Notes under the pieces: generated by a model | Told to the model about the DNA's origin: nothing | Database searches by the model: none | The model's input: the letters and a program-made list of their open reading frames with translations, nothing else | Translations under genes and position numbers: made by a program | DNA from: Burkholderiales bacterium | GTDB lineage: Bacteria > Pseudomonadota > Gammaproteobacteria > Burkholderiales > Burkholderiaceae_C | Direction of reading: 5' to 3' | DNA: 64,000 nt | NCBI GenBank assembly: GCA_025350145.1 | Contig: JANXYH010000082.1 | Span: 1-64,000, forward strand | In this document: positions 9,483 to 29,498 of the stretch, in pieces | Numbering within the stretch: position 1 is the stretch's first letter | Layout: each line of letters opens with the position of its first letter

Positions 9483-11146
9483 GGCGACGCGGCCAGCAGA
9501 CGCTGGATCAATCCGGCGGTCGAGCCATCGAGCCCGGTGGTGTCGCCGCTGGACAACCTGGGTAACAGGTCGCCACACAGCGCCTTGCCCAGCTCTACGC
9601 CCCATTGATCGAAACTGTTGATGCCCCAGAGCGCGCCGCTGGTGTAGACGCGGTGCTCGTACAGCGCGATCAGGGCGCCCAGGCTGCGCGGGCTCAGGCT
9701 GTCGAGCAGCAAGGTGGTGCTGGGCCGGTTGCCGGGAAAGCTGCGCTGGCGCGCCAGGCTGAGCCTGTCGATGCTGGCCGAGGCGGTGGGCGCGGACTCG
9801 GCCAGTGCCTCCTCGGCACGCTTGCCCAGCATCAGCGCCTGGCTCTGCGCCAAGCAGTTGGCCAGCGCCTTGCGGTGCAGATCGGCATGCGGGTGGGCGG
9901 GCTGGCGGACCGCGATGAACTCCACCGGCACCACATCGCTGCCTTGGTGCAGCATCTGAAAGTAGGCATGTTGGCCATTGGTGCCCGGCTCGCCCCAGAC
10001 CACTGGGCTGGTGGCAAACGGCAGCACCTGGCCCTGGGCATCGACGCACTTGCCGTTGCTCTCCATCTCAAGCTGCTGCAGGTACGCCGGCAAGCGCCGC
10101 AGGCCCTGGTGGTAGGGCGCGACCGAGCGGCTGCCAAAGCCGTGGAAATTGCGGTACCAGATGTCCAGCAGCCCCAGTTGCATCGGCAGGTTGGACTCGG
10201 GCGGGGCGCTGGCGAAGTGCTGGTCCATCGCATGCGCGCCGGCCAGCAGGGCGCGAAAGTGCTCCGCGCCGATGGCGATGGCAATCGGCAGGCCGATCGC
10301 GCTCCACAGCGAATAGCGCCCGCCGACCCAATCCCAGAAACCGAAGGTGGTGCGGATGCCGAACTGGGCCGCAGCCGCGAGGTTGGTGGTGGCGCCGACG
10401 AAATGGCCGCCAATGTCGCTGCCGCCTTGGTCGACGAACCACTGCCGCGCGACCGCCGCATTGGCCATGGTCTCCTGCGTCGTGAAGGTCTTGCTGGCGA
10501 TGATGAACAGCGTGGTCTCGGGCCGCAGGCCGCGCAGCACCGGCGTGATGTCATGGCCATCGACATTGCTGACGAAATGGCAGCGCAGGCGGCGGCTGGC
10601 ATAGGCGTCCAACGCCGGCACCACCATCTGCGGCCCCAGGTCGGAGCCGCCGATGCCGATGTTGACGACATCGGTGATGGTGCTGGCGCGCACCGCTTCG
10701 GCATAGGCCAGCATCGCCGCCAGCACCGCGTGCACCTGGTCGCTGTGCGCGCCCTGCCCCGGCGGTGCCCGCAAGGCGGTGTGCAGCACCGCCCGGCCTT
10801 CGCTGGTGTTGATCGGCGCGCCAGCCAGCATCGCGTCGCGCTGCGCCGGCAACTGGCATTCGCGCGCCAGGTCCAGCAGCAGCCGCCGGGTGGCAATATC
10901 CCAGCGGTTCTTCGACAGATCGGCAAACACCTCGGGCGATTGCAGGCTGAAATGCGCGAAGCGCTGGCTGTCGCGGGCAAAAGCCTCGCGCAGATCAAAG
11001 TCTCGGCCATGGGCCTGGAAGTGGCCCTGCAGCCCGGCCCAGGCGGTGGTGGCGTCGCAGCGCGGGGCGCCGGTCGAGGGCACATCTGCCCAGGCAGAAG
11101 TGGCTGCGGCCTGGGGTGGCTGGGGTGGTGTCATGGCGCGGCCCAA
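9479..11146 (-). CDS. pgi: glucose-6-phosphate isomerase
   Basis: 555 aa; NIGIGGSDLGPQMV, FVSNVDGHDITPVL, IIASKTFTTQETMANA, VWGEPGTNGQHAYFQMLHQGSDVVPVEFI, GALWGINSFDQWGVELGK. Confidence 0.97.
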   Translation of the reverse strand: MGRAMTPPQPPQAAATSAWADVPSTGAPRCDATTAWAGLQGHFQAHGRDFDLREAFARDSQRFAHFSLQSPEVFADLSKNRWDIATRRLLLDLARECQLPAQRDAMLAGAPINTSEGRAVLHTALRAPPGQGAHSDQVHAVLAAMLAYAEAVRASTITDVVNIGIGGSDLGPQMVVPALDAYASRRLRCHFVSNVDGHDITPVLRGLRPETTLFIIASKTFTTQETMANAAVARQWFVDQGGSDIGGHFVGATTNLAAAAQFGIRTTFGFWDWVGGRYSLWSAIGLPIAIAIGAEHFRALLAGAHAMDQHFASAPPESNLPMQLGLLDIWYRNFHGFGSRSVAPYHQGLRRLPAYLQQLEMESNGKCVDAQGQVLPFATSPVVWGEPGTNGQHAYFQMLHQGSDVVPVEFIAVRQPAHPHADLHRKALANCLAQSQALMLGKRAEEALAESAPTASASIDRLSLARQRSFPGNRPSTTLLLDSLSPRSLGALIALYEHRVYTSGALWGINSFDQWGVELGKALCGDLLPRLSSGDTTGLDGSTAGLIQRLLAASP

Positions 11147-11213: not shown

Positions 11214-12251
<1,038 letters not shown>

Positions 12252-12330
12252 CGTCCCCCCTTGAAGCGGCCGGCCGGCGCCCGGCCCGCGAATTGGCGCT
12301 GCAGCGGCGCTGCTGCTGCCGCCGCCGCGC

Positions 12331-14505
12331 TCACGGCAGCACCCGCCGGCCCAGTTGCCGCTGCCCGACCAGTGCCTGGATCGCCGCCACCGTCAGCGAC
12401 ATCAGCAGCATCAGCACGGTGCAGTAGGCCAGCGCCAGTCCGTAGTCGCCGTTGCCGACCCGGCTGATGATGTAGGTGGTCGCCAGCTCGTTCTCGGCGG
12501 TGACCAGGAAGACCACCGCCGACACCGTCGTCATGCTGCGCACGAAGCTGTAGACCAGGGCCGCGACCAGCGCCGGCTTGAGCAGCGGCAGCAGCACCCG
12601 GCGCAGGGTCGTTGCGGTGCCGGCGTGCAGCATGGCGCTGGCCTCGTCCAGGCTTCTGTCGATCTGCTTGAGGCTGGCCGATCCGGCCCGCACACCGACC
12701 GGCAGGCTGCGAAAGACAAAGCACAGCACGATGATCAGCCCGGTCCCGGTCAGCTCGAATGGCGGCACATTGAAGGCCAGGATGTAGCTCACGCCGAGCA
12801 CGGTGCCGGGAATGGCGAAGGCCAGCAGGGCGGCGAACTCGAAGGCGCGGCGGCCGGCAAAGTCGGTGCGCGCCAGCAGCCACGCAATGAGCAGGCCGAG
12901 CGCGGCGCACAGCGGTGCGGCAATGGCCGACAGGCGCAAGGTGGTGAACAGCGAGTTCCAGGCGGTGCCGGCCCAGACCAGGCCATGGCTGCCCCATTGC
13001 AGGTCGAAGGCGCTGCGAAAGTGGACCAGGGTGGGGCTGTAGTCGCGGCCCCAGGTCTGGACGAAACCGCCGGCCAGGGCGAAGGCATAGACCACCGCAG
13101 TAAAACCCAACCACGGCACGGCCAGCGCCAGGCTGGCCCAGCGCACTGCCGGCGGCAGCGGCGGCGCGATGCCCGAGTCGCCCTTGCCGGCCACCGTGGT
13201 GTAGCTGCGGCGCCCAAGCAGACGCTGCTGGGCGAAGAAGGCGAGCAATGCCAGCAGCGTCAGCAGCAGCGCCAGCGAGGCGGCCCGGCCCTGGTCGAAC
13301 TGGGCTCCGACGATGGCAAAGAAGATTTCGGTGGACAGCACCGCGTACTGCCCGCCGACCACCACCGGGTTGCCGAAATCGGCCATGCTCTCGATGAAGC
13401 CGACCAGGAAGGCATTGGCCAGGCCCGGCATCATCAACGGCAGGGTGACGCTGCGAAAGGTCGTCCAGCGGTCGGCGCGCAGGGTCTGCGCGGCCTCTTC
13501 CAGCGCTGGCGCGATGCCCTGGATGACACCGCGCAGGATCATGAAGGCGATCGGCGTGAAGGCGAACAACTGCGCCAGCCAGACGCCGAACAGGCCGTAG
13601 AACCAGCGCGTCGGCGTCACCCCGAACCAGGCCTCCAGCGCCTGGTTGACCAGACCCGCCCGGCCGAACAGCAGGATCAGGCCCAGGCCAACGACGAACG
13701 GCGGGGTGATGATGGGCAGCATCGCCAGCAGGTTCAGCGATTTGCGCCAGCGCGGCCTGCCGCGCTCGGCATAGAGCGCGATCAAGGCGCCCAAGAGGGT
13801 AGTACCGCAGGCCGTGAGCAGGGCCAGTGCCAGGGTGTTCCAGGCCACGCCGCAGCGCACCCCGCCGCTCAGGCAGGCCAGGCCCCAGACGCGCTCATGG
13901 CTGAGCCTGGCCCACAGCGCCGACAGCGACCAGGCGCCGGCATCGTCGACGAACGCCCCGACCAGGGCCTTGGCCACCGGCAGGCCGACGAACAGGGCCA
14001 GCAGGGCGGCCGACACCACCACCGCCGCAGCGACGAAGGTGTCGGCCCTGAAGCAGCCCAGCCGCGCCAGCCCACAGCCCAGCAATGCCAGCAGGCTCAG
14101 CAGCACCACCGCAGCGCCCAGGCCCATGCCAGGCTGGCCCAGGCCCAGGGCACCGAAGCCAGCGGCCAGGCCCTCGAATGCCCAGCCCTGCGCTGTGATG
14201 GCAAAACCGCTGGCGAGCAGGCCGATCAAGGCCAGCGCCGCGCCTGTGACCAGCCAGCCGCCCTGGCGCCGCCCGGCCGGCAACCACCAGCCCAGACTGC
14301 CCAGCAGCAAGCCGGCGGGCGCGAACAGCAACCATGGCCGGCCATGGCGCAGCACCTGGACCAGCCCGCTGGCGGTCTCGGCGCCGCCCCAGACGCCGGC
14401 CAGCCAGGCTGGCGACCCGCCGTCCTGCGGCCAGTACCAGGGCAGCGCGACGAACCCCAGCCAGCCCAGCAGCAGCCAGGCACCGATGGGTGAGCGGGCT
14501 GTCAC
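12331..14505 (-). CDS. ABC transporter permease, fused double permease (AfuB/FbpB-like)
   Basis: About 724 aa from the GTG overlapping the upstream stop (GTGA); two EAA-like motifs (EEAAQTLRADRWTTFRSVTLPLMMPGLANA; DEASAMLHAGTATTLRRVLLPLLKPALVAA), many TMs. Confidence 0.88.
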   Translation of the reverse strand: MTARSPIGAWLLLGWLGFVALPWYWPQDGGSPAWLAGVWGGAETASGLVQVLRHGRPWLLFAPAGLLLGSLGWWLPAGRRQGGWLVTGAALALIGLLASGFAITAQGWAFEGLAAGFGALGLGQPGMGLGAAVVLLSLLALLGCGLARLGCFRADTFVAAAVVVSAALLALFVGLPVAKALVGAFVDDAGAWSLSALWARLSHERVWGLACLSGGVRCGVAWNTLALALLTACGTTLLGALIALYAERGRPRWRKSLNLLAMLPIITPPFVVGLGLILLFGRAGLVNQALEAWFGVTPTRWFYGLFGVWLAQLFAFTPIAFMILRGVIQGIAPALEEAAQTLRADRWTTFRSVTLPLMMPGLANAFLVGFIESMADFGNPVVVGGQYAVLSTEIFFAIVGAQFDQGRAASLALLLTLLALLAFFAQQRLLGRRSYTTVAGKGDSGIAPPLPPAVRWASLALAVPWLGFTAVVYAFALAGGFVQTWGRDYSPTLVHFRSAFDLQWGSHGLVWAGTAWNSLFTTLRLSAIAAPLCAALGLLIAWLLARTDFAGRRAFEFAALLAFAIPGTVLGVSYILAFNVPPFELTGTGLIIVLCFVFRSLPVGVRAGSASLKQIDRSLDEASAMLHAGTATTLRRVLLPLLKPALVAALVYSFVRSMTTVSAVVFLVTAENELATTYIISRVGNGDYGLALAYCTVLMLLMSLTVAAIQALVGQRQLGRRVLP

Positions 14506-15545
14506 CGTGGCAGCGCGTTGACGTCCTTCTCCCACTTGGCGATCAAGCGCTTGCGCTCGGCCGACGAACCGTACTTGGCGTAGTCGTAGGCGATGAACTT
14601 GATCTTCTTGAAGTCCGGCACCCGCGGGTCGACCGGCGTGGCCTTGTTCGACGGCAGTTGAAACTGCTTGGCCGCCGCGCCGAACTGCTGGGCCTGCGGT
14701 GTCAGCGCCCATTCATAGAACTGCTTGGCCTGCACCAGGTTGCGCGCGCCCTTGATGATGCTCATCGAGCCGATCTCAGCGCCGGTGCCTTCGGCCGGTG
14801 TCGCGGTCTCGACCGGGAAGCCCTGCATCTTCTCGCCCGGGCCGTCGTGGACAAAGCTGATCGCCACCGTCGCCTCGCCGCGCGCCACCGCCTTGATCGG
14901 ACCGGTGCCGGAGCGCGGGTACTGGCTGATGTTCTTGTGCAGGGCCTTCATGTAGGCGAAGGCGGCATCCTCACCCATCAGTTGCACCAGGGTCGCGACC
15001 ATGGTGTAGGCGGTGCCACTGGAAGCCGGATTGGCGACCTGGACCTCGCCCTTGAGCGCCGGGTCGAGCAGATCCGACCAGCGCGCCGGCGGGCTGAGCT
15101 TCTTCTTGGCCAGCAACTCGGTGTTGAAACCAAAGCCCAGCGGACCGGAGTACACCCCCACGGTTTTGTAGCCCGACTGCTGTGCCTGCTGCTGGGCCCA
15201 GGGGTGCAGTTGCGCCAGCGAGGCCGACTTGTACTCCAGCGTCAGGCCACTCTCCGCGCCCTGCAAATGCGGGTCACCGGTGCCGCCGAACCAGACATCG
15301 GTCTTGGGGTTGGCGCGTTCGGCGATCAACTGCGCCAGCGCCTCGCCCGAGCCCTTGAGCGAGACGTTGATCTTGATGCCGGTGGTTTTGGCGAACACCG
15401 TCTGGATCAGGTTGCACCACTCGGCCTGGACCGAGCAGATCACGTTCAACTGGCCAGCGTCCTGGGCCTGTGACTGGCCGGCTGCGGTGGCCAGCAACAG
15501 TGACACCACAAGGCGGCGCGGGACGGATGTGATGACGAGGCGCAT
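14502..15545 (-). CDS. ABC transporter substrate-binding protein, family 1 (AfuA/FbpA-like)
   Basis: Signal peptide (MRLVITSVPRRLVVSLLLATAAGQSQAQ); ERANPKTDVWFGGTGDPHLQGAESGLTLEY; PLGFGFNTELL; PASSGTAYTMVATLVQLMGEDAAFAYMKALHKNISQYPRSGTGPIKAVARGEATV. Confidence 0.88.
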   Translation of the reverse strand: MRLVITSVPRRLVVSLLLATAAGQSQAQDAGQLNVICSVQAEWCNLIQTVFAKTTGIKINVSLKGSGEALAQLIAERANPKTDVWFGGTGDPHLQGAESGLTLEYKSASLAQLHPWAQQQAQQSGYKTVGVYSGPLGFGFNTELLAKKKLSPPARWSDLLDPALKGEVQVANPASSGTAYTMVATLVQLMGEDAAFAYMKALHKNISQYPRSGTGPIKAVARGEATVAISFVHDGPGEKMQGFPVETATPAEGTGAEIGSMSIIKGARNLVQAKQFYEWALTPQAQQFGAAAKQFQLPSNKATPVDPRVPDFKKIKFIAYDYAKYGSSAERKRLIAKWEKDVNALPR

Positions 15546-15686: not shown

Positions 15687-16856
15687 ATGCGCCGCTTGGA
15701 CTGCCCCGGGTTTGCCCGAACCGCCACCGGGCTGGCGCTGTGCCTGGCCGGGACTGTCCATGCCGCGACCTGGCAGGTCGAGCCCGGCGGGGCGATTGCG
15801 CGCCTGGCCGACGCGGTACGCCAGGCCGGTGACGGTGACACCATCCTGGTGGCCTCGGGCGACTACCACGGCGATGTCGGCGTCATCACCCAGAAGCGGC
15901 TGACGATCCGTGGGGTCGGCCAGCGGCCGGTGTTCCATGCGGACGGCCGCCATGCCGAGGGCAAGGCCCAATGGGTGCTGCGCGACGGCGAACTGACGGT
16001 CGAGAACCTGGCCTTCATCGGCACCCGGGTGCCCGACGGCAACGGTGCCGGAATCCGCTTCGAGGCCGGCCACCTGGTGCTGCGGCGCTGCGCCTTTCTC
16101 GACAACCAGATGGGCCTGCTGACCAACAACGTCGAGACCGCCAGGCTGGAGATCGAGGACAGCGAATTCGGCAACGCGCCGGGCGTGCCGGGAAAGCTCG
16201 AGCACTTGCTCTATATCGGCCGCATCGCCTCGGCCAGCGTGGTCGGCAGCCATTTCCATGGCGGCCACACCGGCCACCTGATCAAGTCACGCGCGGCGCG
16301 CACCTGGCTGGCCTACAACATGATCGTCGACGGGCCCGGCGGCAGCGCCTCCTACGAGGTCGATCTGCCCAACGGCGGTATTGCCACGCTGCTGGGCAAC
16401 ACCATCGGCCAGAGTGAGCTGACGCAAAACAACACCGTGGTGGCCTTTGGCGCCGAGGGCCAGCCCTGGCCAGTCAGCCGGCTGGTGCTGGCGCACAACA
16501 CCTTGCTCAGCCCGGCCCTGCCCGAGTCGCGGTTCCTGCGCCTCTGGCCGGAGCGCCTGCCCGCCGACACCGCCGTGTATGCGCTCAACAACCTGACCGT
16601 GGGGGCAGGCGCATTTGCGCCTCTGGCGGGCGCCCCGGCCGGGCGGTTTGGCGGCAACCACGCGCTGCCCATGCCGCCGGACAGCGACCAGGCCAGGTTG
16701 GCGCGGATCATCGGCGACACCGACCGGTTCCCGGCGGTGCCGGCGCGCCTGCCCGACGGCACCGATCTGGCACCGCAGGCCGAGTTTGTCTGGCCGGCCG
16801 GCCGGATGCCGCTGGCCGCACGGCTGCACTGGTCGGCAGGGGCCTTCCAGCGCTGA
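15687..16856 (+). CDS. secreted right-handed parallel beta-helix repeat protein
   Basis: 389 aa; signal peptide; IARLADAVRQAGDGDTILVASGDYHGDVGVITQKRLTIRGVGQRPVFHADG..., LTVENLAFIG, LVLRRCAFLDNQMGLLT pattern. Confidence 0.75.
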   Translation: MRRLDCPGFARTATGLALCLAGTVHAATWQVEPGGAIARLADAVRQAGDGDTILVASGDYHGDVGVITQKRLTIRGVGQRPVFHADGRHAEGKAQWVLRDGELTVENLAFIGTRVPDGNGAGIRFEAGHLVLRRCAFLDNQMGLLTNNVETARLEIEDSEFGNAPGVPGKLEHLLYIGRIASASVVGSHFHGGHTGHLIKSRAARTWLAYNMIVDGPGGSASYEVDLPNGGIATLLGNTIGQSELTQNNTVVAFGAEGQPWPVSRLVLAHNTLLSPALPESRFLRLWPERLPADTAVYALNNLTVGAGAFAPLAGAPAGRFGGNHALPMPPDSDQARLARIIGDTDRFPAVPARLPDGTDLAPQAEFVWPAGRMPLAARLHWSAGAFQR

Positions 16857-16898
16857 CGCCGCAGATTTCCGGGCCAAGAAACCACCGCATCAAAATCA

Positions 16899-16913
16899 TG
16901 TAACCAAATTACA
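16899..16913. promoter_or_regulatory. candidate HexR operator
   Basis: TGTAACCAAATTACA: inverted repeat TGTAA-N5-TTACA, resembling the described HexR consensus (TGTARTWWWAYTACA-like), 8 nt upstream of the zwf remnant ATG. Confidence 0.6.
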
Positions 16914-16920
16914 CTGGTGG

Positions 16921-17079
16921 ATGTCCTTCGACCTTGTGTTCTTCGGCGGCACTGGCGACCCGACCTGGCGCAAGCGGATGCCGGCCCTGTTCCAGGCCTG
17001 CCGCCACAGCAAGCTGCCAGGCGGCGGGCGGATCATGGCGGTGGCCCGCGACGGTTGCATCCGGGACGAGGAGCAATAG
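16921..17079 (+). pseudogene. zwf: glucose-6-phosphate 1-dehydrogenase N-terminal remnant
   Basis: MSFDLVFFGGTGDPTWRKRMPALFQACRHSKLPGGGRIMAVARD closely matches the Zwf N-terminal dinucleotide-binding start (GGTGDLxWRKLMPALFxAxRxGxLP), but a TAG stop follows after 52 codons. Confidence 0.8.
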
Positions 17080-17083
17080 CGCC

Positions 17084-18004
17084 GTGCCAGCGACGCTGCC
17101 TCAGGCCGTGCCGCAATCCTGGGCCCCGCCGACCAGCGAGATGCTGTCCAGGATCGAGGCCAGCCTCCCGGCCTTGCCGCCGGCCGAGCAACGCGTGGCC
17201 CAGGTCCTGCTGGCCGACGCGCGCAGCTTTGCCTGCGAGCCCATCACCACGCTGGCCCAGCGGGCCCAGGTCAGCAAGCCCACGGTGGTGCGCTTCTGCC
17301 GCAGCGTCGGCTATGCCGGGCTGGCCGACTTCAAACGCAAGCTGGCCGGCGCCGTCAACGAGGGCGTGCCCTTTGTCCACCGCGCGGTCGACGAGGGCGA
17401 CAGCACCCAGGGCCTGGTCGTCAAGGTCATCGACAACGCCGTAGCGGCGATGCTGAAGTACCGCAACGATGCCAGCGGCCATGCCTTCGAGCAGGCGCTG
17501 GCGCTGCTGGCCGCAGCCGGCAGCCAGGGCAAGCGGATCGAGTTCTATGGCGTCGGCAATTCAGGCATCGTCGCCCAGGACGCCCAGCACAAGTTCTTCC
17601 GCCTGGGCGTGCACTCCGCCGCCGTCAGCGACGGCCATGTCCAGGTCATGAGCGCGACCATGCTGGGCGCAGGCGACGTGGTGGTGGTGATCAGCAATTC
17701 CGGCCGCAGCCGCGACCTGATAGACGCCGCCGACATCGCCCGGCGCAAGGGCGCGGCGGTGATCGTGGTCACGGCCAGTGGCTCGCCGCTGGCCCATCTG
17801 GCACTGACCCACCACCAGGTGCTGCTGGCGGCCGACCATCCGGAAGACTTCGACCGCTACAGCCCGATGGTGTCGCGATTGCTGCACCTGACGATCATCG
17901 ACATCCTGACCACCGGCGTGGCCCTGCGCCTGGGGCCGGCGCTGCGCCCAAAGCTGCAAGAGATCAAGCGCAACCTGCGGGCCAAGCGCTACATGCCCAA
18001 CTGA
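17084..18004 (+). CDS. hexR: MurR/RpiR-family transcriptional regulator, HexR-like
   Basis: HTH_6 (LPPAEQRVAQVLLADARSFACEPITTLAQRAQVSKPTVVRFCRSVGYAGLADFKRKLA) plus SIS domain (GVGNSGIVAQDAQHKFFRLG, VVVISNSGRSRDLIDAA). GTG start 4 nt after the zwf remnant stop; alternative ATG at 17141. Confidence 0.82.
   Translation: MPATLPQAVPQSWAPPTSEMLSRIEASLPALPPAEQRVAQVLLADARSFACEPITTLAQRAQVSKPTVVRFCRSVGYAGLADFKRKLAGAVNEGVPFVHRAVDEGDSTQGLVVKVIDNAVAAMLKYRNDASGHAFEQALALLAAAGSQGKRIEFYGVGNSGIVAQDAQHKFFRLGVHSAAVSDGHVQVMSATMLGAGDVVVVISNSGRSRDLIDAADIARRKGAAVIVVTASGSPLAHLALTHHQVLLAADHPEDFDRYSPMVSRLLHLTIIDILTTGVALRLGPALRPKLQEIKRNLRAKRYMPN

Positions 18005-24728: not shown

Positions 24729-29498
<4,770 letters not shown>

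Follow-up and report, generated by a model that had tools for sequence, protein, structure and literature searches.

The 64,000-nt stretch of contig JANXYH010000082.1 analysed here (the window) carries a short open reading frame directly in front of hexR on the plus strand (16921-17079), which according to the sequence and the ORF list comprises 52 codons from an ATG start, followed by TAG. The preliminary description had read it as a zwf gene reduced to a 52-codon remnant, and this was borne out by the match to Pfam G6PD_N (E 2.5e-7, 31.9 bits, cut-off 22.1) and by about 120 relatives; a lack of Zwf similarity in a profile search, named there as possible counter-evidence, was not found. The NCBIfam zwf model aligns to the remnant at model positions 3-46 only (22 bits, cut-off 400.6). 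In tblastn comparisons with the ~120 related loci, the N-terminal 44 codons (16921-17052, +), which correspond to zwf codons 1-44 and the start of the NAD(P)-binding domain, were 75-89% identical to those of Sphaerotilaceae-like closer relatives. The profile match and these relatives rule out a chance ORF.

The sequence behind the 5' part had been described as divergent from zwf. The assignment of the 5' part stands, but the divergence does not: the last codons (17053-17079, +; GCIRDEEQ and the stop) are the Zwf C-terminal tail. The remnant ends in ...MAVARDGCIRDEEQ and the stop, and Zwf of the relatives ends in ...AMVARDGC[TS]WDEEQ and the stop, which rules out that the 3' part is new sequence. 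Since this tail matches the 3' end of zwf in relatives, the ORF is, as judged by homology, an in-frame fusion of the Zwf N-terminus (codons 1-44) and the genuine C-terminus. Genome-wide profile searches showed that the remnant does not possess the full NAD(P)-binding and C-terminal domains of a functional G6PDH. Both of its ends are homologous to zwf, the catalytic body is missing and relatives carry an intact orthologue, as expected for a zwf pseudogene.

The intact zwf of congeners has 481 codons and, in the ten congeners compared, encodes VARD twice, at codons 41-44 and 470-473. The two motifs are 429 codons apart, and 481 - 429 gives 52, the exact size of the remnant, whose junction GTGGCCCGCGAC (VARD; 17041-17052, +) represents both codons 41-44 and codons 470-473 of the intact gene. 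As the two VARD-coding stretches are near-identical in DNA (GTGGCxCGCGAC, ~12 nt in common), a frame-keeping deletion between short repeats is the simplest origin of the remnant. The internal deletion of zwf that had been proposed is thus fully supported, with breakpoints placeable at the VARD repeats, and in comparison with congeners it is evidently an in-frame loss of 429 of the 481 codons. Strand slippage or short-repeat recombination may have been the mechanism. In the course of events that we propose, a 1,287-nt in-frame deletion between the two repeats would have taken out codons 45-473, or the equivalent in a shifted register, and the 52 leftover codons would be unable to make the enzyme. 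Bacterial pseudogenes formed by deletion between short direct repeats show the same in-frame internal deletion, near-repeat breakpoints and later substitutions at conserved sites, and nothing essential differs here.

The genome to which the window belongs is a draft of 4.56 Mb in 211 contigs with a completeness of 98%. The draft state of the genome and the position of the junction at a short repeat would also fit an assembly artefact, in which a 1.29 kb zwf body was collapsed across the repeat. We regard this as highly improbable, since the repeat is only ~12 nt long, G6PD_C is unmatched anywhere in the genome, conserved residues are mutated on both sides of the junction (L14P and L19R; W>R), which is not an assembler effect, and edd, a gene of the same pathway, carries independent damage including frameshifts. 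The search for an intact zwf elsewhere in the genome, suggested in the preliminary description, was done with profiles: there was no second G6PD_N match in the 4.56 Mb assembly besides the remnant, and no G6PD_C match anywhere in it. A second zwf copy is thereby ruled out within the assembly.

Each of the 20 congeners sampled carries a G6PD_N gene. The comparison of the locus among relatives, likewise suggested, revealed a full zwf directly upstream of hexR and on the same strand in all 16 congeners carrying this hexR, and the flanks of the locus are conserved in congeners as well, with pgi and a beta-helix ORF upstream and mlaC downstream. The relatives with this locus belong to Ideonella, Aquabacterium, Roseateles, Pelomonas, Rhizobacter and similar Burkholderiales. 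Among the ~120 loci, the short 52-codon ORF was not found in any other species; the relatives have full zwf. In a search of 40 relatives, G6PD_N was absent from seven (G021, G025, G026, G033, G035, G039 and G040), of which one is from the same family and the other six are from the rest of the order, so zwf loss is recurrent in this order. A plasmid search returned only weak hexR-like matches, and a literature search found no zwf or Entner-Doudoroff (ED) pseudogenes in Burkholderiales.

The remnant has also begun to change at conserved sites. The GDL to GDP and RKL to RKR substitutions noticed in the preliminary description are real and lie at positions that do not vary among 86 distinct relatives. 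Altogether, L14P, L19R, F27C, G30S and L39M affect positions that are 81-100% conserved in these 86 relatives, and the C-terminal tail has a W>R change. Four of 37 positions conserved in at least 95% are changed in the remnant, and at most two in any of 44 relatives. In plain pairwise N/S comparisons, the mean nonsynonymous distance between the remnant and congeners was ~0.08 versus 0.036 among congeners, with similar synonymous distances, although with 44 codons only this is a weak test of constraint on the stub. The nonsynonymous distance of the remnant is raised, yet still below the synonymous one. Since the lineage as a whole has somewhat long branches, relaxed selection need not account for all of the excess. 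These values fit a gene on which constraint remained normal until a short time ago and which would now be decaying. Start, frame and stop are still present, which at 52 codons is weak evidence of selection.

Upstream of the remnant, the HexR-type operator GTAACCAAATTAC with the palindromic half-sites GTAAY/RTTAC is located at 16900-16912 (+); nearly all relatives have the same element ahead of zwf. The retention of the operator, as proposed earlier, is supported. With one mismatch allowed, 0.28 occurrences of this palindrome are expected in the window; a looser operator pattern with two mismatches allowed gave background only. A HexR-type operator also precedes edd in all seven congeners examined. 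The pattern GTRAYNNNRTYAC has nine sites in the genome of the window, two of which are of the strict GTAAY/RTTAC form, and these only two strict HexR-type operators precede the broken zwf and the broken edd. HexR would be expected to bind the operator at 16900-16912.

That the promoter was kept too, as also proposed, is not supported. The alignment of 84 relatives has TTGACC-17-CATCAT at the former zwf promoter site, in most of them with constant spacing to the operator, whereas the corresponding sequence here (16865-16893, +) is ATTTCC-17-CATCAA. The columns of the -35 box TTGACC are 83-96% conserved in these relatives, and the box is lost in our genome. A sigma-70 promoter scan before the remnant found nothing, with positive results for two congeners (L143 and L140) as controls. 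The TTGACC box is missing from Ideonella sp. A288 (L059) too, which makes its loss suggestive rather than decisive. Compared with the zwf-hexR operon of other Burkholderiales (Ideonella, Roseateles, Pelomonas, Rhizobacter and relatives), the locus has the same gene order, strand, operator, flanks, Zwf termini and intact hexR, but lacks the -35 box and 429 of the 481 codons of zwf.

The downstream gene hexR (17084-18004, +) is intact and, as expected for a HexR regulator, encodes an RpiR-type HTH domain and a SIS domain (Pfam HTH_6, SIS) in synteny with zwf. Its product is 77-84% identical to those of congeners and scores 253 bits with the NCBIfam HexR subfamily model, below the cut-off of that model (296). 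The gene had been described as starting with GTG 4 nt past the remnant. Such a GTG exists at 17084 and could be served by GAGGAG at 17068-17073 in the zwf tail; conservation, however, favours ATG 17141, the common hexR start of relatives, 61 nt past the remnant, and the 19 residues preceding it are not found in common with them. HexR has nine changes at positions conserved in at least 95%, several of them in the HTH domain (relatives: mean 1.8, maximum 10). As Pgi of this genome is likewise more divergent than among congeners, these changes are only a hint of relaxed constraint, and hexR is still constrained (pN ~0.1, pS ~0.33). Probably, HexR is a near-orphan regulator, intact behind a pseudogene.

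It had been proposed that the remnant serves as a leader ORF whose translation is coupled to that of hexR; in this model, selection would maintain it, and it would keep hexR under its own operator. The intact operator, the in-frame deletion that keeps the zwf tail with GAGGAG as a possible ribosome-binding site for GTG 17084, and the hexR start 2-12 nt past the zwf stop in some relatives would agree with this. However, the zwf-hexR gap is highly variable in relatives (-1 to 349 nt), the hexR start that relatives have in common lies 61 nt beyond the remnant, the -35 box of the promoter is lost, five substitutions hit nearly invariant Zwf sites, and none of the relatives searched has such an ORF. 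We found no positive evidence for coupling: the residues are decaying, and the cross-species conservation and the constraint on length or peptide that mark a regulatory leader ORF were not seen among the ~120 loci. Like regulatory leader ORFs, the remnant is a short ORF with start and stop before a regulator gene; unlike them, it has no ORF conservation, promoter, attenuator or peptide constraint. The simultaneous loss of edd also speaks for plain pathway decay rather than a leader ORF, which we consider very unlikely. Hardly more credible is that the Zwf stub, the operator and the zwf tail would be retained together as a platform for hexR expression, by which a catabolic operon would have become a regulator-only autoregulatory unit whose HexR would serve eda or other targets.

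The edd gene (6-phosphogluconate dehydratase) is a pseudogene as well (contig C172, ~28286-28668, minus strand; locus L154), with a 393-codon deletion, a frameshift and a stop. The deletion covers residues 133-525 and leaves two halves that no longer share a frame; in addition, the 5' part is scrambled and an in-frame TGA is present. Intact edd is found in 16 of 20 congeners. An intact HexR-type operator lies ahead of the broken gene (C172:28782-28794), and eda directly behind it is intact. A second copy of glucokinase is fragmented (C21:70174-70408, locus L162, 6 kb past the window end; residues ~225-258 and 275-319 in different frames), and a further glucokinase gene is undamaged as far as contig C169 extends. 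The genes pgi (window 9506-10921) and gnd are present. The pgl model TIGR01198 had no match in any of 21 genomes of the genus and is thus uninformative; in this genus, another family must supply the lactonase, or the step is unassigned. Judged by gene content, the standard route from glucose 6-phosphate to KDPG would be closed with zwf and edd gone. That gnd and eda are kept though their main upstream suppliers are gone counts against the pseudogene reading.

HexR sites in Pseudomonas lie at zwf/hexR and edd/gap, with KDPG as the effector (PMC5489143), and HexR regulons with zwf, edd, eda and glk have been described in other Proteobacteria (PMC5343134). Our genome has the same palindromic operators before zwf-hexR and edd-eda, but both targets zwf and edd are broken, and the regulator, the operators and eda are left. 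As edd of the same pathway is wrecked too, what is left of zwf is most likely a relic of a pathway under loss. We conclude that it is very probably a pseudogene that arose by internal deletion in a lineage losing this pathway, and not a new regulatory gene. The deletion would have occurred in a lineage from which the upper Entner-Doudoroff pathway is disappearing together with the Zwf entry to the oxidative pentose phosphate pathway; edd and one glk copy are broken as well. The operator and hexR would then persist as upstream and downstream bystanders, or HexR would still autoregulate and control the edd remnant and eda.

The pseudogene explanation does not exclude that HexR was re-purposed. 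Freed of zwf and edd, it would mainly control itself and eda, for example via KDPG formed from other sugar acids. The continued constraint on intact hexR, the intact eda behind a kept operator and the role of KDPG as HexR effector in Pseudomonas (PMC5489143) are consistent with this, but the nine changes at 95%-conserved HexR positions are compatible with early decay, and the only two strict operators left are each ahead of a dead gene. We therefore regard re-purposing as possible, though rather doubtful.

The species thus offers a pathway loss caught part-way, with zwf and edd broken by large internal deletions and the operators, the regulator and eda remaining, and lends itself to the question of how long a regulator and its operators persist once their targets are lost. 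Gene callers may label the remnant 'hypothetical protein' or 'G6PDH N-terminal', and the species should not be credited with the oxidative pentose phosphate or the upper Entner-Doudoroff pathway.

Some further features of the locus and of congeners were observed. Congeners have a second HexR paralogue fused to glucokinase (~630 aa; e.g., L163, G008:C16), which adjoins a divergent stand-alone glucokinase; this fusion paralogue had no match at E <= 1e-60 in the genome of the window. The right-handed beta-helix-like ORF at 15687-16856, located upstream of zwf in congeners too, has weak similarity to NosD and no Pfam family. Between pgi and zwf, the window also contains an operon for a binding-protein-dependent ABC transporter (11214-15542), which among the congeners inspected occupies the same place in one only (G009).
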